21,328 nt of DNA from a virus, in IMG/VR virus record IMGVR_UViG_3300010296_000112, positions 1 through 21,328 of that record; one strand, given 5' to 3'. Numbering within the stretch: the stretch's first letter is position 1; every line of letters begins with the position of its first letter. Position numbers and translations under genes: made by a program. The notes below the pieces were generated by a model. The model worked only from the letters and a program-made list of their open reading frames with translations, did no database searches and was not told where the DNA came from. Below are positions 2,652-19,296 of the stretch, one piece after another.

Positions 2652-3962
2652 TTAATCTGTGATTTTAAATAGAGAATGACTTTCAATTAACTGTATTCCA
2701 AGTCCTTCATCAGACATATACTGGTCTTTAACACCATCAAAGGCATTATCAGTTTTAATATTAGCCTGATACATAGAAGGTCTATACTGCGCATGAAATA
2801 GATTCTCATCAGATACTACAACCATGTACTTATTGTACTGATTACGTAGAGCTGGTGTTGGAATCAACTGTAACATACCATGAGGTGTCTCAAGTACTCT
2901 GTAGTTAAATCCTAATGAATCACGTTTCATGTCACCAAGGTTAACACTCCATCCAGAGTTTCCAGCTAATCCAGAATCTCCTGCCATTTTAGACCAATAA
3001 CCTAAAGCACCAGCTCCCACGAAAGCACGCTTTACGCCTACTTCTGGAACATACTGGAATACTTTTTCCATATCGTCTACAAACTGACCATAAGAGTAAC
3101 TAGCCTCAGATACAGTAAAGATGTTTTGATAATCAACAGAAGAACTAGAAGATCCATACTGCTCTAATGCAGATACAATTCCATATGTACTTCTAATTAA
3201 ATTACCATTAGCATCAGTTCTTCCACCATCAGCAAAAGAATCAGATGTAGAACCATCTTGTAAGTCAAGACCTGTTCCACCAAGCCTCTTACCAAATAAG
3301 AAAGCTTTTTCTTTTTGCATCTTATGCTCTTGTGCTTTGATTCTGCGTAGTCTAGCTAATTCAGATGATTCACCTCTAAGTACTGCAGCTTGTAAAGTTC
3401 CAGTAACTTGTAGTGGTGTTTTAAAAATCTGACAACTATTAAACACAACATCAAGGTCATCTGACCATGCATCTGGAGCAGAACTACCTTCACCATGTGC
3501 ATTACCAATTACACAAAAGTAATCATCATCTGATACAGAAATAGCACCACTAATTGGTTTTACTGTAATGTGATTATCTTCTGGAATAGCAGTAATTACT
3601 ACAACACCTCTGTTTGTAGTCTTAGCTGAGTCCCATACTTCACATTGTAAACCAATATAAGATGAATCTGGTGAAGATGCTAGGTTATAGATATTGTCAA
3701 TTTCTAAGCTATCACCATTGTTATCATCACTTAATGTAGCTGATTCTGCTGCTTGGAACTCTTGTTTAATCCAAGGATTCCTGTGTTCAAACATTTTGAA
3801 AACAGGGTCTGGTACTGAGCGTAGCTCCTGATTACTAACCATTGTAGTAAAGGGAGCAACATCAGTCCATAGTTCTTTAGTAACTTGTGGGTCTACATAA
3901 AAATCTCGTCTTTCGTTGTAGATTACACCACTAGCACCAAGTTTCTTTTCAGTTGCCGCCAT
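2652..3962 (-). CDS. Major capsid protein (SU10-like family)
   Basis: A 436-residue protein. The N-terminal segment includes IYNERRDFYVDPQVTKELW and VAPFTTMVSNQEL. The block IFKTPLQVTGTLQ (residues 179-191) followed by a long basic helix containing LARLRRIKAQEHKMQKEKAF (about 202-221) is typical, from memory, of the SU10-like major capsid proteins, which have the HK97 fold. These proteins form the icosahedral shell. A good AAGGAG site precedes the ATG. The gene follows the scaffold-like gene and precedes the decoration-like gene, the usual capsid order. Residues 72-160 look like an inserted beta domain. A profile search against the SU10 capsid family would settle the assignment. Confidence 0.85.
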   Translation of the reverse strand: MAATEKKLGASGVIYNERRDFYVDPQVTKELWTDVAPFTTMVSNQELRSVPDPVFKMFEHRNPWIKQEFQAAESATLSDDNNGDSLEIDNIYNLASSPDSSYIGLQCEVWDSAKTTNRGVVVITAIPEDNHITVKPISGAISVSDDDYFCVIGNAHGEGSSAPDAWSDDLDVVFNSCQIFKTPLQVTGTLQAAVLRGESSELARLRRIKAQEHKMQKEKAFLFGKRLGGTGLDLQDGSTSDSFADGGRTDANGNLIRSTYGIVSALEQYGSSSSSVDYQNIFTVSEASYSYGQFVDDMEKVFQYVPEVGVKRAFVGAGALGYWSKMAGDSGLAGNSGWSVNLGDMKRDSLGFNYRVLETPHGMLQLIPTPALRNQYNKYMVVVSDENLFHAQYRPSMYQANIKTDNAFDGVKDQYMSDEGLGIQLIESHSLFKITD

Positions 3963-3979: not shown

Positions 3980-4882
3980 CTAGCGACCTAGTAATGCATC
4001 ATTAAAAGATTGCTCATCAGTTCTAGGTTGTTCAGATTTACCTGTTATAACACTAGGGTCTTTAGGTACTGATAACCTTTGAGCTTGATTTTGCATCTCT
4101 TGTGTTTTTTGTTGCACTACTGGATTCGCATTTGTTCTTAATTCAAATAACTTAGCTAAATTATCCATAGAAAGATTATCTGGTGCAGAAGCCCATTTGA
4201 TAAAATCATTAGCTTTTGCATTATCCCAGCCATAGTTATTAACAGCATGACTATACGCTTGTTGTTGTATAGCTTGCTGTTGTTGTACAGCCATTTGTTG
4301 TTCATATTGAGCCTGCATTTCTGCTTGCCTTTGTGAATCAACATTTCTAAGATAACTAAGATATTCATCTCTATAGTTTTCTTTAGCTACTCGATACTCA
4401 AACGACTTTGATTCTGGGTCATTATAAGCATCAACTTCATTGTAATTAACTGGTTTCTCAGGTTCTGTAGGCTCCTTCAATGAAGTCTGCTGAACTCCCA
4501 TTTGGGTTTGTCCTGCAGGTTGTCCATTGGAGAGCTTTGCTTCTAAACTATCGAGAACCTCTGGATTATTTTTAATAATTTGCTCAACAGGAGCCATACT
4601 ATTTCTATAATAATCTAGTTCTTCTCTAAGATTAGATAGTTCACTCTTGGCTTTATCAGCCTGTGACTGCCAGTACTCATACCTATTAGTGTCTTCTTTT
4701 GGGTCAACACCGTTTTCTGTGGTTTCACTAATTGGAGCTGCAACTTCTTGACCACTAGTAGGGTCTAAGTCAGTATTAGGAACTGATTCAACTTGAGGTG
4801 CTTCACTAGCATACTCTCCTTGAAACATTTCCACATCTTGCGAAGGTGCAGAACCAGCATCAACTACTTCCAAATTATCCAT
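3980..4882 (-). CDS. Putative capsid scaffold protein
   Basis: A 300-residue acidic, low-complexity protein between portal and major capsid genes, the usual place for a scaffold. Residues 1-60 are rich in Glu, Asp, Pro and Ser; about 65-120 form a coiled-coil-like helix (SQADKAKSELSNLREELDYY); about 180-215 are strongly Gln-rich and helical; the C-terminus is short and charged and ends in LLGR. Scaffolds guide procapsid assembly and are then released or degraded. No protease motif is visible, so I do not call it a protease-scaffold fusion. An AAGGA site precedes the ATG. Confidence 0.7.
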   Translation of the reverse strand: MDNLEVVDAGSAPSQDVEMFQGEYASEAPQVESVPNTDLDPTSGQEVAAPISETTENGVDPKEDTNRYEYWQSQADKAKSELSNLREELDYYRNSMAPVEQIIKNNPEVLDSLEAKLSNGQPAGQTQMGVQQTSLKEPTEPEKPVNYNEVDAYNDPESKSFEYRVAKENYRDEYLSYLRNVDSQRQAEMQAQYEQQMAVQQQQAIQQQAYSHAVNNYGWDNAKANDFIKWASAPDNLSMDNLAKLFELRTNANPVVQQKTQEMQNQAQRLSVPKDPSVITGKSEQPRTDEQSFNDALLGR

Positions 4883-4930
4883 TTTCTTTTTCCTTTATTT
4901 GCGATTTGGTTAATTCCAGCAACCGCTTCC

Positions 4931-7162
4931 TCAATTCTCTTCATTTATACTTAGTATAGTTTCATTCATCTCACGCTGTGGATTGTCTTCAGCAGCTATA
5001 GATAAATCATTTCTTGCATTCTTTAACTCATCACTAAGTCTAGATTGATATAATTTTTGTGCCATTTCTACTTTGGCTTCAGCTTTAGCAAGCTTCTTTT
5101 CAAATTCTTTTACTTCTACACGCTTTCTATCATGTAGTGATTCCCTCTGTGCAGTCTGTAAATCACCTTTAAGTTTCTTAATTTCCTCATCCTGCATTTG
5201 CAACTGTTGTTGTAATTGTTTCATCTGTCCAGATCTTTCTAGTACACCTTCCATATCTGCAACATCAGTTTGTTTTAATAACTCTATTTGGTCAATTAAA
5301 CCAGCTTGATATAACTGCATGTAGTACTCAAATCTTCCCCAACGATTACTTGGTAATGTAGAACCAGATAATACTATAACATCATATTTACCAACAGTAA
5401 TATCATTTTGTTTGCCTACAACATTTCCTATATCATCATACATAGGACTATTAACTACAACTTCCATAGGTTTATTATTAGGTTGCATTATTCTCATAAC
5501 TTTTTGGTCTGTATAAACTTGCTGTATTAAACCTATAACTACTTTAGCTAATTGATTTATTCCTTCTTCTATGTCATCTCTTTTAGATTTTATACGTCTT
5601 TGACCATATTCATCTAAAGCAACAGTACCTTTAAAAGTTTGTGGTGCAGCACCCATGTCGCCCTGCATTAAAGCGTATATACCAAGGATTCTTTCAATAT
5701 CAGCTTTTGCATCTGCCTCATTTTTATATAATTCATTAGGCAAAGGTATAGGGGATGCTACTATAGGACTACCTAACTCTGGGTCAAACTCTATGACCGC
5801 TGTTCCTGCTCTACCCCAATCTTGTTCTACCTGCTGTTTGTTTACTGCACCACGAGGGATTAATAATTTTACATTTGTACTACTAGATGCATGTGCAATA
5901 ATTAATGAACGTATTTTATTTATATACTCTTGCAATCCTTTTACAAGCCTTACATCAGACATAGGATAAGGATTACGATTAAAACCATTCATAAATGGTA
6001 CAATTGGATATTCTTCTATAGGTAATATTGATTTATATAACATATGGTCACCTACAGAAACACATTGCTCTATATTTGTAACTTCTATTTCGTTTACTAA
6101 AATTCTATTATCTTGTATTAAATGGTCTTTAGTAGCAATGTCTATATAGCTTGTAGAGTTAGGTATTGACCCTTCATGTTCTTTACCTGCCATTGGCATA
6201 GGTTGACCTGACATAGGGTCTTGCATCATATGAAACGTATCACCCATTTGTTCATGTAATTGAACATAACCTCTAACTTGTTTTTCATCAGTAAATATTT
6301 GAACATCACCATTATTGTCAGTTAATATAACTACTTCTTCTTTTTTGTAATCATCATATTGGTCTATGTTTAATACTTTTTCTTCATTAGAGTATGGGTC
6401 ATATATTTTATAATAAGGCATACGTATTTTTGTATACCTTGTAAACATTTCTAATTCTCTATCCCCAGTTAATTCTTCTCCTGCTATTCTGCTTTTTAAT
6501 GTAACATCTTCAGAGTATAAAGGAGTTCTACTTTCAGCAGGTATATTAATGTGACTAGTTTCTTGAACTTGTAATATTTGTTCTTCAAACTCAGGGAAGT
6601 ATTGTATTAATTGATTTTCACTCATCAATTTAGCTACAATTATATGACCACAATCTCTAGCAAAGGGATCTTTACTGCTTGGGTCAAAATATACTTCAAG
6701 GGGGTCTATTGATTTAAGACAAACTTCACCACGACCAAAGTCTTTATCTGGGTCTGTATATGCCATCATAACTCCCATGCCTTTAACATAGTAGTCATCG
6801 ATGCATTGCTTGAGTTCTACGTTGCCATGTGAATTATCCCAGACGTAGGACATCAAGTCAGAAAATAAACGACCAACTTCTGTATCGCTGGTTTCTCTGG
6901 CAGTTGACTGAAATCGTGGCTTGTTAGCAGAGAGCATAGCTTTTGCTTGCTCTACTGCAGAAAAAACTACATTTACGACAATAGGTTCTTGAGCTTTATT
7001 GCGTAAGGTGTCAGCTTGTTCTTTTGTCCATTGCTTACCATTACGAAACTCATTATCCTCTACAGCTTGCTTTGCCCAGTTTTCTCTGGCAGAGCTGTAT
7101 TCTTTTAATAGGTCGTGTGTAAATTGTACTTCTGGGTCTTTACTAGAGTTATTATTATGCAT
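4931..7162 (-). CDS. Portal protein, P22-like
   Basis: A 743-residue protein, close in length to the P22 portal (about 725). It lies directly downstream of TerL, the classic order. Recognisable segments are the N-terminal SARENWAKQAVEDNEFRNGK, the mid-region MSDVRLVKGLQEYINKIRSL, and ILGIYALMQGDMGAAPQTFK followed by GTVALDEYGQRRIKSKRDDI, which matches the P22-type portal clip/stem region as I know it. Residues from about 640 to 725 form a long coiled coil (barrel helix and C-terminal extension). The portal forms the dodecameric channel through which DNA enters the head. No Shine-Dalgarno sequence is seen ahead of the ATG, unusual for a late gene. Confidence 0.85.
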   Translation of the reverse strand: MHNNNSSKDPEVQFTHDLLKEYSSARENWAKQAVEDNEFRNGKQWTKEQADTLRNKAQEPIVVNVVFSAVEQAKAMLSANKPRFQSTARETSDTEVGRLFSDLMSYVWDNSHGNVELKQCIDDYYVKGMGVMMAYTDPDKDFGRGEVCLKSIDPLEVYFDPSSKDPFARDCGHIIVAKLMSENQLIQYFPEFEEQILQVQETSHINIPAESRTPLYSEDVTLKSRIAGEELTGDRELEMFTRYTKIRMPYYKIYDPYSNEEKVLNIDQYDDYKKEEVVILTDNNGDVQIFTDEKQVRGYVQLHEQMGDTFHMMQDPMSGQPMPMAGKEHEGSIPNSTSYIDIATKDHLIQDNRILVNEIEVTNIEQCVSVGDHMLYKSILPIEEYPIVPFMNGFNRNPYPMSDVRLVKGLQEYINKIRSLIIAHASSSTNVKLLIPRGAVNKQQVEQDWGRAGTAVIEFDPELGSPIVASPIPLPNELYKNEADAKADIERILGIYALMQGDMGAAPQTFKGTVALDEYGQRRIKSKRDDIEEGINQLAKVVIGLIQQVYTDQKVMRIMQPNNKPMEVVVNSPMYDDIGNVVGKQNDITVGKYDVIVLSGSTLPSNRWGRFEYYMQLYQAGLIDQIELLKQTDVADMEGVLERSGQMKQLQQQLQMQDEEIKKLKGDLQTAQRESLHDRKRVEVKEFEKKLAKAEAKVEMAQKLYQSRLSDELKNARNDLSIAAEDNPQREMNETILSINEEN

Positions 7163-10074: not shown

Positions 10075-10164
10075 GTCTTTTTAATTTAAAGTAAAACTTT
10101 ATGCTATTTCAACTCTGATTTGTATATATATGTTCCAAATACTCTATTGCAACTAGAACAAGAA

Positions 10165-10355
10165 TGGGAGTGAGAGGTATGTTACGTTGCCTACCCCCAC
10201 GTTAGTTGGGTTGCAGGGGGTTGATTTGGTTGAGTTCAAACATCGAGTTAAGGTGTTGCTTACGCAACTCGTTCTTTACTCACCAATATCACTCCCACCC
10301 TGACGTACAGCTCACGACCCCCAAAGCTTACGCTTTGCCGCAGTCGTAGAGGTAC
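10165..10355 (-). ncRNA. Structured RNA or leader in the divergent intergenic region
   Basis: The 445-base gap between the divergent operons has no ORF I can support but has G+C near 48% here, against roughly 30% in genes. One domain is closed by TGGGAGTGA (10165-10173) with TCACTCCCA (10289-10297). It encloses ACCCCC (10193-10198) with GGGGGT (10216-10221), and CGA at 10244 with TCG at 10269 leading to GTTGC/GCAAC (10255-10268). A second domain pairs 10305-10318 with 10343-10355 (GTAC, CTC and ACGAC with their partners, small bulges) around the hairpin CAAAGC/GCTTTG at 10322-10337. Read on the minus strand both hairpin loops are GUAA, a GNRA tetraloop, so I favour minus strand: a leader of the virion operon. 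The strand is uncertain. Confidence 0.5.
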
Positions 10356-10519
10356 TTGTTACCACACATGTATGTATGCCCAGCTATATACTATAATCCT
10401 TACACATAGACAGAGTACTTATACTGATTTGTGATGTTATTTATGTTCAGTTGAAAACTTTCTCATATGTTACTGGACTTCTTTATTTGTGAATTTATTC
10501 ACTAAAATAAGGAGTTCTT
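10356..10519 (+). promoter_or_regulatory. Divergent leader with hairpin before ribosome site
   Basis: This stretch is AT-rich and non-coding. GTGAA (10489-10493) pairs with TTCAC (10498-10502) around a TTTA loop, seven bases before the AAGGAG ribosome site (10509-10514) of the first plus-strand gene. A TATAAT lies at 10392-10397 but without a matching -35 box, so I do not call a promoter. The early promoter is probably in this stretch. Confidence 0.35.
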
Positions 10520-10684
10520 ATGTTAAAATTCGTAAAAGATATATTGTACATTGTTCTTGGAGCAATTGGTGCAATAGTATATGTTTCGTATAAAACTGGT
10601 AAACATATTGCAGATAGTATACCAGAGGATAAAAAGTTTATCAAAGATACATATTCTCAAGTTAAAGCAGTAATCAAAAAGTAA
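10520..10684 (+). CDS. 54-aa single-pass membrane protein
   Basis: First gene of the plus-strand side. The 54-residue product has a short N-terminal segment, a hydrophobic stretch at about residues 8-23 (ILYIVLGAIGAIVYV) and a basic, charged C-terminal half ending in VIKK, typical of a small single-pass inner-membrane protein with a cytoplasmic tail. A strong AAGGAG site precedes the ATG. It is followed at once by a good terminator, so it is its own transcription unit, probably expressed early. Small phage membrane proteins of this type often act on the host envelope or in exclusion, but nothing here proves that. Confidence 0.75.
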   Translation: MLKFVKDILYIVLGAIGAIVYVSYKTGKHIADSIPEDKKFIKDTYSQVKAVIKK

Positions 10685-10687
10685 AAT

Positions 10688-10725
10688 AAAGAGTCAGGCG
10701 TATGCTTGGCTCTTTTTTATTTTTA
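10688..10725 (+). terminator. Rho-independent terminator
   Basis: AAAGAGTCAGGC (10688-10699) pairs over 12 bases, with two G-U pairs, with GCTTGGCTCTTT (10704-10715) around the loop GTAT, and is followed directly by TTTATTTTT. This is a textbook intrinsic terminator on the plus strand, ending the 54-aa gene. Confidence 0.9.
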
Positions 10726-10763
10726 GTATCTATTCAACAATAACAATCAACGGAGGTATAATT

Positions 10764-11213: not shown

Positions 11214-11257
11214 ATATTCTACAATCTTTTTTATTTCTGAATCAAATGGAGGTTATC

Positions 11258-12048: not shown

Positions 12049-12390
12049 ATGACTGAATTACATAAAGTACTATCAAAGTACAAAGAGCAAATCGAGGATA
12101 TAACCAAAGCACGAAATGAAAAGCGTGCTAATAATCCTGTATGGTTTAATCGTAGCAAACAGGTTGACGGAGTCTGGAGTGATAACCCTATATCCATAGA
12201 CAAAATTAATGAATCTATGGATGACGGTTATATAGTTAACATGTTTATCAAAGATGTAGAAGACAAAGACAATGTTCTTACTACGACTTTGGCAGATTTG
12301 TTGAAAGACAAATTGATGTTGGCTTTGGGTACAGAGAGAGAGTGCAAAAATAACACATTGCGCTATATGGTAGTCAGTACTGAAGAGTAA
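12049..12390 (+). CDS. 113-aa protein of unknown function
   Basis: The start at 12049 (MTELHKVLSKYKEQ) is chosen because AGGAG at 12036-12040 precedes it by eight bases. The open frame continues upstream to 11911 but there runs through stem-loops and has no ribosome site. The product is soluble and mixed charge, with a helical N-terminus, a middle segment ANNPVWFNRSKQVDGVWSD and a helical region around LADLLKDKLMLALG. No motif recognised. Its last codons and stop form one arm of the first helix of the large RNA element that follows. Confidence 0.7.
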   Translation: MTELHKVLSKYKEQIEDITKARNEKRANNPVWFNRSKQVDGVWSDNPISIDKINESMDDGYIVNMFIKDVEDKDNVLTTTLADLLKDKLMLALGTERECKNNTLRYMVVSTEE

Positions 12391-13327
12391 TCATCTGTCG
12401 TGTTAATAGCAAGTGTGGTGTCTGTAAAAGGATACCACATTTGCTAAAAAAGATGTGCTTCATTCTTCAGCTCAGTATTATAGTTCGCCAAAAAGCTCAC
12501 ACTCACCACCATAACCTGCAACTGCAATGTCACATGAACAAGCTAGAACAAGCTTAGTAATATTTACTGCTTTTTTTATTTGTGATGTATCTGGTTTGGT
12601 AATTAATAGTTAGTAACGTCGTAAGGATCTCTGAAATGTACAGACACGAGTGAACACTATACCCAGTAATACATCATGCTACTGCAAGCTCTCATGAACT
12701 AGGTAGTCATGTCTGTCTTGGTACCAGAATCTGTATACATAGAAATGACAGCAGAGCCATTAGACCCCAGTCATCAACTTGGAGTTAGAGTGAATTTGGC
12801 AACTAACTCAGTCAGGTAGCATACACAATGAGGTAAAGCCATCAGTTTAATTAACAGGAGGTTTTACCTTGTTGTGTAATTTCGTTAAAAAATCCTTACA
12901 TATTCCCTGCGATTTAAAGTCTTGAAAAAGGTAAGAACTAGTCTAGACTCACTTTAAACGTACACAGTTAGAATTAAATGTAAGGTTAGAGAACAATGGC
13001 TAAACGAGCATACTGTTACTCTAGTGAGGTTAGCCCCTGCACCTTACAACAACCAAAGCAGGGCAAAACGTTATAACAGACACTAGGATGTACAAGAGCA
13101 GAGTAGAAGTTGAGAACTATCGTAAACATGGATATTACGCTCACCATGAACATCCTAGAAGATATAAGAGCCTATGCACATTAACATTCGTTAACGTCAT
13201 GACATTAGCCACGATGGAAACCTACAAACTTTTTAAAACGCAGTAGGTAGTACACGACACGAAGAATCTACCACGAGTTTGCAACGGTGTGGCAGTAGAA
13301 GAAGTGTTAGGGTTGTGTATAGGCTCT
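12380..13327 (+). ncRNA. Large structured non-coding RNA (about 950 nt)
   Basis: No ORF with a ribosome site exists here on either strand, G+C is about 42-48% in the lines I counted, and many helices can be drawn. (1) 12380-12388/12462-12470 encloses 12392-12396/12451-12455 and a 16-bp stem 12407-12422/12431-12446. (2) 12640-12646/12710-12716. (3) 12782-12788/12803-12809. (4) An unbroken 19-bp stem 12822-12840/12860-12878. (5) 12894-12901/12978-12985 encloses 12908-12920/12951-12962. (6) 12998-13003/13030-13035 is followed by 13036-13040/13058-13062. (7) 13083-13091/13150-13158 encloses hairpins at 13108-13118 and 13121-13139. (8) A 14-bp stem 13167-13180/13314-13327 encloses three hairpins. 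G-U pairs place the RNA on the plus strand. Size, ornateness and phage setting recall GOLLD and ROOL RNAs; identity is not established. Confidence 0.7.
12551..12580 (+). terminator. Possible internal terminator
   Basis: AGTAA (12556-12560) pairs with TTACT (12564-12568), extended by AGC/GCT across a two-base bulge, and is followed by a run of T at 12571-12577. If it works, the first domain of the region would be a 3' untranslated end and the large RNA would begin downstream of it. The stem is short, so I rank it as weak. Confidence 0.3.
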
Positions 13328-13350
13328 AAAAAATTAACAAAGGAGGAATA

Positions 13351-13710
13351 ATGCAAAAACTAGTAGTAAAACAAAGAGTAACAACTTCATCATTAATGAT
13401 ATTAGAACAAAACGATTATAAACGAAGTGCATATACTTGGATTGATTTAGGTATAGTATGTCGTGGTTTTAGAAACGATGAAGGTTGTGTTCTTGTGCAA
13501 ATGAAAATAGGTTTATTAAACAATACAGGAGCAGAATACAGAAACTACCCAGATGAAATTGTAGATGTAATAGAAAAATACTATGGAGAACATCATGGTA
13601 TTAGACATCAAACACCACATCTTGTTGAAGCAGTATTGTGGCGTAAACCAAACAATCTTAAAAGACTAATTAAAAAACATAAAGGAAAGGACATGAGAAC
13701 AAAATGGTAA
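13351..13710 (+). CDS. 119-aa protein of unknown function
   Basis: An excellent AGGAGG site (13341-13346) precedes the ATG, 23 bases after the closing stem of the large RNA. The product begins MQKLVVKQRVTTSS, has a probable beta region around YTWIDLGIVCRGFRNDEG and VLVQMKIGLL, and ends in a strongly basic helix (WRKPNNLKRLIKKHKGKDMR). The basic tail suggests nucleic-acid or nucleoprotein contact, but no known domain is evident. Being directly downstream of the large RNA, it is the first candidate for a partner protein of that RNA; this is speculation from position. Confidence 0.7.
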   Translation: MQKLVVKQRVTTSSLMILEQNDYKRSAYTWIDLGIVCRGFRNDEGCVLVQMKIGLLNNTGAEYRNYPDEIVDVIEKYYGEHHGIRHQTPHLVEAVLWRKPNNLKRLIKKHKGKDMRTKW

Positions 13711-19241: not shown

Positions 19242-19277
19242 ATAAATAGGGGAAGTATAACAGCTTTCCCTATTTAT
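19242..19277 (+). terminator. Stem-loop after the primase-helicase gene
   Basis: TAAATAGGGGAAG (19243-19255) pairs with CTTTCCCTATTTA (19264-19276), one G-U on the plus strand; one further A-T pair makes 14 bp, with an eight-base loop. It starts seven bases after the stop codon. What follows is AT-rich (AAATAAAATAAAG) but not a T-run, so it may be a processing or stability hairpin rather than a full terminator. Confidence 0.5.
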
Positions 19278-19296
19278 AAATAAAATAAAGGGTACT

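Follow-up and report, generated by a model that had tools for sequence, protein, structure and literature searches.

Between two plus-strand genes of a marine phage lie about 950 bases in which a reading of the sequence alone found no gene but a series of folded domains. The question raised by this locus is what such a stretch encodes, and whether it belongs to one of the known classes of large RNA. We addressed the question in a window of 21,328 nucleotides, the whole stretch of DNA that was analysed, which makes up the complete IMG/VR record IMGVR_UViG_3300010296_000112. Approximately 750-950 of these bases encode a large folded RNA and no protein. Comparison with related phages indicates that the architecture is very probably that of a plus-strand structured RNA assembled from exchangeable cassettes.

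Genomic context and coding status

In this marine phage record the structural genes for the large terminase and portal are on the minus strand, and the plus strand of the window carries DUF932, ERF and DnaB-type primase-helicase genes. The region is bounded by an upstream early gene of 113 aa (12049-12390) and a downstream gene of 119 aa (13351-13710), both on the plus strand and both without a match in Pfam and PHROG searches. The closest large terminases from cultured phages have ~25% identity to that of the window. A 46-kb contig in a Prochlorococcus single-cell genome encodes a terminase relative at 70% identity and a primase-helicase 33% identical to that of the window; on these matches it is a related phage, which makes a picocyanobacterial host of the window phage possible. 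Contamination is possible in single-cell genomes.

Two other long intergenic regions attracted attention. In L137, a related phage contig from a Prochlorococcus single-cell genome, ORF-free stretches of the same early region (3144-3705 and 5707-6032) are apparently structured by eye, contain none of the elements described below and have no Rfam match. In the window itself, 10075-10763 lies between divergent gene blocks, is conserved among relatives and contains a strong terminator at 10688-10715 and a short ORF.

In line with the sequence-only reading, no ORF of at least 60 aa is present on either strand from 12391 to 13350. Most of the indels that separate it from close homologues have lengths not divisible by three (16/19, 11/17, 9/12 and 11/17), so the region is not a protein gene, and the conserved protein-like frame named by that reading as the alternative was not found in it. 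The G+C content had been described as clearly above that of the neighboring genes. There is an excess (38.4% versus 34.0% for the window), but it is modest and is matched by some coding stretches (0.388 at 4501-5000).

Single-sequence fold energy was rejected as evidence of structure. Relative to shuffles, the region has z values of -3.7 on the plus strand and -4.2 on the minus strand, but coding 960-nt windows of the same phage range from -3 to -7 and fold as well. In 150-nt windows the mean z is -0.89 inside the region, where there are only five windows, versus -1.07 outside. The case for a structured RNA on the plus strand is therefore made by covariation in homologues and not by the folding of one sequence.

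Modules, covariation and transcript boundaries

Mapping with nhmmer gave seven modules on the plus strand in the order A-C-D-E-F-G-H, fewer than the eight or more consecutive domains originally proposed, and the three long helices of that proposal are all present. Hairpin A (12407-12449, 17 bp) shows the compensatory change GCAAGTG/CATTTGC to GTAAATG/CATTTAC in L003 and is probably the 3' end of the upstream transcript. Module C (12590-12821), the 5' domain, occurs in every relative with a full array. Module D (12822-12879) is a hairpin of ~19 bp with one internal loop; its tip, ATCAGTTTAATTAACAGGA, recurs in L127 on another stem, CATCC/GGATG. Module E (12886-12985) consists of four nested helices with conserved CCTGCGA...CGTAyAyAGTTA, and brick E2 (12913-12958) is plugged into its tip, where brick E3 or other tips are found elsewhere. 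Module F (12996-13064) forms, by eye, an H-type pseudoknot (13024-13030/13041-13047 and 13035-13040/13058-13063). Module G (13077-13159) is closed by the stem CTAGGATG/CATCCTAG. Module H (13161-13331), the 3' domain, has a 14-bp closing helix (13167-13180/13314-13327) around an inner stem-loop (GACAC/GTGTT, TCTAC/GTAGA), with a variable hairpin between.

Covarying base pairs, which the earlier reading expected in homologues, are present in both H and E. In the closing helix of H, all 96 of 96 cells are paired across eight variants, and 11 of the 12 pairs have changed on both sides; none of 500 shuffles reaches the observed value, which is also far above that of slid versions of the helix. The inner helices of H are 100% paired with few changes. 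The four nested helices of E are 96% paired, with a double change at ten pairs, and on four of five measures 0/500 shuffles match them. The alignments used for counting (A4 and A5) were built by hand from the helix arms with loops removed, one bulged base being dropped in L127; because MAFFT misaligned the closing helix of H when L039 was included, the arms were taken by their core motifs. The H cells include 31 G.U and 0 A.C combinations, consistent with an RNA of plus-strand sense.

Two further comparisons concern the stems. The F pseudoknot occurs by eye in just two stem variants, which are compensatory to each other: CAAGGT/ACCTTG with GCTCTG/CAGAGC, and TGAGGT/ACCTTA with CCCTGC/GCAGGG. 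In a comparison of 17 modules, each with two or more stem variants, arms from the same sequence pair at 6.49 of 7 positions and arms exchanged between variants at 5.50 (P ~2e-13, with related sequences treated as independent, the best offset chosen and G.U counted as paired). Matches of the G pattern in L008, L010, L013 and L115 are false and depress the G score in this comparison; they are not used in the argument.

Upstream of module C, the promoter-like motif CTTTTTTTATTTGTG (12570-12584, plus strand) matches exactly the motif YTTYYTYTATTTNTG, a type that recurs before early genes of the window phage and its relatives. Motifs near CTTCCTTTATTTNTG lie on the early strand upstream of genes at 10477-10491, 11225-11239, 12570-12584 and 19264-19278 of the window, and in relatives they are often joined to a terminator-like hairpin. 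This recurrent motif is likely an early phage promoter. Given its recurrence before early genes, transcription of the functional RNA probably begins near 12585 and continues into the downstream gene, in which case 12391-12585 would be the end of the upstream unit. No terminator was found between module H and the ribosome site AAGGAGG of the next gene (13340-13346), so the RNA would also be the mRNA leader of that gene unless it is processed.

Exchange of cassettes and bricks among phages

The locus had been proposed to be either a diverged member of GOLLD or ROOL or an undescribed class. A cmscan of the window with Rfam 15, including the GOLLD and ROOL models, returned nothing at gathering score; down to E = 5 there was only STnc50, on the minus strand, at 24 bits versus a gathering score of 55, which is a chance match. 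The covariance models of OLE, HEARO and the other large Rfam RNAs had no match in the window, nor did any known Rfam family of self-splicing introns or riboswitches, and the Rfam 15 search of the relatives also gave no family. Membership of any Rfam family was rejected, the STnc50 and SNORA79 matches being far below gathering score. The window has no tRNA gene. Thus the GOLLD/ROOL reading is unsupported and the undescribed class is the half of the proposal that holds, with the qualification that the array is a mosaic of exchangeable cassettes and not one fixed RNA class. It could alternatively be counted among the large ornate phage RNAs. Our literature search on modular phage RNAs, which covered few subscription papers, gave no matching case. 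We rate the architecture as new because no kind of RNA built of nested, exchangeable cassettes was found.

Searches with the downstream gene, with a pair of conserved 16-18-mers and with the large terminase identified close relatives (L002/L011, L003, L005 and L012) and more distant ones (L021, L023, L026, L028, L032, L036, L039, L095, L098 and L103). Queries with the window region and the L095 and L130 arrays found no match to the RNA by blastn in 50,697 cultured phage records. Lactobacillus-type loci from a first pattern scan (L004-L010 and L013), together with L014, were discarded as chance 16-mer matches without blastn homology to the window; the Lactobacillus-type loci have one unrelated repeated stretch in common.

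Among the relatives, the frame C...F...H is constant in order, and the cassettes between are gained, lost and reordered. The L002 array is a clean loss of G, and the L005 array a clean loss of D and E. More distant arrays read C-E-F-K-H (L026), C-E-F-G-H (L028, L098 and L103), C-F-J-M-K-G-H (L032), C-F-I-J-N-H (L021) and C-F-P-I-J-Q-M-H (L023 and L095). Because the flanking genes of the window and L002 are ~93% identical, these gains and losses of cassettes are recent. Several of them (G, H, I, E3 and Q) are also found as lone cassettes in short spaces between genes, often 25-45 nt upstream of a start codon. In L077, L081 and L104-L108 a lone G occupies the space between DUF932 and ERF, which in the window measures 10 nt; in L134 that site holds Q carrying E3, and the site in L122 and L126 appears equivalent. 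The gene 3' of H varies, with at least four different genes across relatives. It is convergent in L036 and L039, the lone H of L036 lying behind one gene and before the convergent one.

Exchange extends to bricks within bricks. The tip of E, which is E2 in the window, is the 22-nt brick E3 (GGATTCATTGAAATTATTCAAC) in L003, L026 and L028. E3 also tips other copies of E (L123, L127, L130 and L131), helices of Q (L122, L126 and L134), S (L119, L120 and L132) and X (L121 and L129), and plain hairpins (L124 and L125). The stems that carry it differ and are all self-complementary, e.g., ATTATGT/ACATAAT, ATAAAAT/ATTTTAT, AGGGAGT/GCTCCCT and ATTTAGT/GCTAAAT. Short matches between stretches that do not otherwise align were also searched for blindly; 28 of 4,687 were flanked by stems of at least 6 bp at both loci, with 0.4 expected, these 28 pairs being mutually dependent. 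At least 15 bricks were recognized in total.

With two mismatches allowed, E3 was found once in each of 18 records and brick I once in each of 11, and every copy is exact; for records that came from exact-match scans this exactness is by construction, and it is unbiased only for L003, L012, L026, L028 and L073, which came from protein searches or from a scan for another brick. The terminases of E3 or I carriers range from 95% down to 31% identity to that of the window, and both bricks are identical in phages whose terminases are only ~31-37% identical to it, in every case on a different stem that is again self-complementary. Such identity across phages with ~31% identical terminases points to strong constraint or to very recent transfer. 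E3 is absent from 84,980 cellular genomes and so, at this stringency of identity, was not copied from a host RNA.

No record has both E3 and I (18 versus 11 records, many of them fragments, among 34 scanned over their whole length), which may be functional exclusion or chance. Among 23 brick carriers other than the window, only L127 has a tRNA gene, a tRNA-Met (L127:943-1017, reverse) that adjoins an E module with the D tip and E3. This arrangement recalls GOLLD and ROOL, which are often, although not always, near tRNA islands (PMC12286853).

Possible functions of the array

The reading that we prefer, with a probability of about 0.4, is a trans-acting early RNA made of exchangeable bricks, each of which binds a host factor. 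A phage promoter near 12570 would drive it along with the early genes, and the RNA would probably be processed out of the resulting early transcript. Its constant frame, with C at the 5' end, the pseudoknot F and H at the 3' end, would receive variable cassettes; every brick would on its own bind a host factor, for instance a nuclease, an RNA-acting toxin or a defense protein, and phages engaged in an arms race would trade bricks much as they trade small accessory genes. Decoys or inhibitors acting in trans are proposed by analogy with phage PhiTE, which escapes ToxIN through RNA mimicry of the antitoxin (PMC3475682). On that analogy, a decoy or counter-defense role would be the most likely single function, though well short of even odds. 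In the fullest version, marine phages draw on a common pool of bricks, which are tiny structured RNA genes conserved to the letter. Any one genome would have a given brick once, recombination of the DNA would insert it at a tip or joint of a longer early RNA, and even very distant phages would pass it on to one another. The RNA so assembled would be a multi-target arsenal that acts in trans against host factors; we hold this version only tentatively.

Several observations bear on the trans-acting reading. Gene-specific control in cis is unlikely, because the gene after H differs among relatives and is convergent in two of them, and the occurrence of a brick only once in a record speaks against a general operator or repeat. 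Distinct, highly conserved units that are shared across phages and vary in combination within an early operon most resemble a stock of small accessory RNA genes. Against a role in trans, lone cassettes often sit before start codons, as cis elements would.

That placement leads to the possibility of intercistronic mRNA elements, i.e., interchangeable leader, stability or processing units (5' protection, RNase sites) that act in cis and are freely swapped. Bricks lie between co-directional genes, usually directly before a ribosome site; the DUF932/ERF site can hold G, Q carrying E3, or nothing, as in the window; and no terminator follows H. RNase III sites lie between the early genes of T7, and they too are structured elements between early phage genes, but here there are many distinct conserved cores, each once per record. 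Stability would need a hairpin only, not a dozen or more distinct cores conserved to the letter. Moreover, E3 and I are each limited to one copy in a record and are not spread over many genes, the order of the frame C...F...H is constant, and H is also found before a convergent gene. We consider this explanation somewhat unlikely. A further reading retains the conserved cores but makes them ribozyme-like processing units that self-cleave and so cut the early transcript. Small ribozymes are characteristically a conserved core on stems that vary freely, and this is what is seen here, together with the pseudoknot in F and complex junctions in Q and H. However, the Rfam ribozyme families have no match, and a dozen or more unrelated new classes in one locus would be unlikely, which leaves this reading quite improbable. 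Brick I (TGATGAG...GAAAC) was also considered as a hammerhead, but inspection by eye placed the letters of the motif in its closing stem, and the idea was abandoned.

An RNA-only assembly, in which one ornate RNA with constant ends and a variable periphery multimerizes like GOLLD and ROOL, fits the size, the many domains, the phage origin and the constant 3' domain with a more variable interior, and the tRNA-Met of L127 would correspond to the tRNA neighborhood of those RNAs (PMC12286853). The array resembles GOLLD as a large multi-domain phage RNA with a conserved 3' part and a variable 5' part, some GOLLD members being marine, and resembles ROOL as a large ornate phage RNA with pseudoknots (PMC12286853). 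It differs from GOLLD in its exchangeable, nested cassettes that also occur alone and in having no tRNA island, from ROOL in that domain content and order change between close relatives, and from both in the absence of a covariance-model match. With G, H, I, E3 and Q also found alone in small intergenic spaces and a module content too variable for one fixed quaternary structure, this assembly is unlikely. Ordinary non-coding filler, with terminators, promoters and chance structure, would account for a fold energy no better than that of coding windows and for the promoter-like motif, but not for covariation in H and E that 0/500 shuffles reproduce or for identical bricks on different complementary stems in distant phages. 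It is the least probable explanation by far; provided that the alignments are right, the covariation already contradicts a chance structure.

To return to the trans-acting reading, its model is ToxI and the pseudo-ToxI of PhiTE, pseudoknotted small RNA units that a phage can use against a host RNase toxin (PMC3475682, PMC5086642); module F, with its pseudoknot read by eye from two stem variants, may have a comparable fold. Unlike type III antitoxin RNAs, which are tandem repeats of one short pseudoknot unit, the region contains no tandem family, and no toxin was recognized adjacent to it, neither neighboring gene having a Pfam or PHROG match that would indicate an endoribonuclease. The likeness is suggested to be limited to the mode of action. 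Structured domains also recombine as modules in viroid RNAs (PMC8865084), but the present array is in DNA phage genomes and its bricks are inserted into the tips of other bricks.

That phages exchange genes as mosaics is well established; for structured-RNA domains, let alone nested ones, we found no precedent in the literature. If every brick functions independently, there is in phage genomes a class of very small RNA genes that escapes both Rfam and gene-finding programs, and the identity of bricks across distant phages makes their binding partners testable individually. A brick array would also be relevant to the function of the large phage RNAs, GOLLD and ROOL among them. If the arsenal reading is true, the array would be an RNA counterpart of an anti-defense island.

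Other loci in these records have related features. Candidate bricks of ~66-72 nt lie in other intergenic spaces on different complementary stems (L011:6261-6332/L031:140-211 and L112:3632-3697/L117:7929-7994). Long ORF-free regions with different modules and an ornate appearance are present at L036:3646-4169, L121:5110-5649 (reverse strand) and L130:11200-12111.
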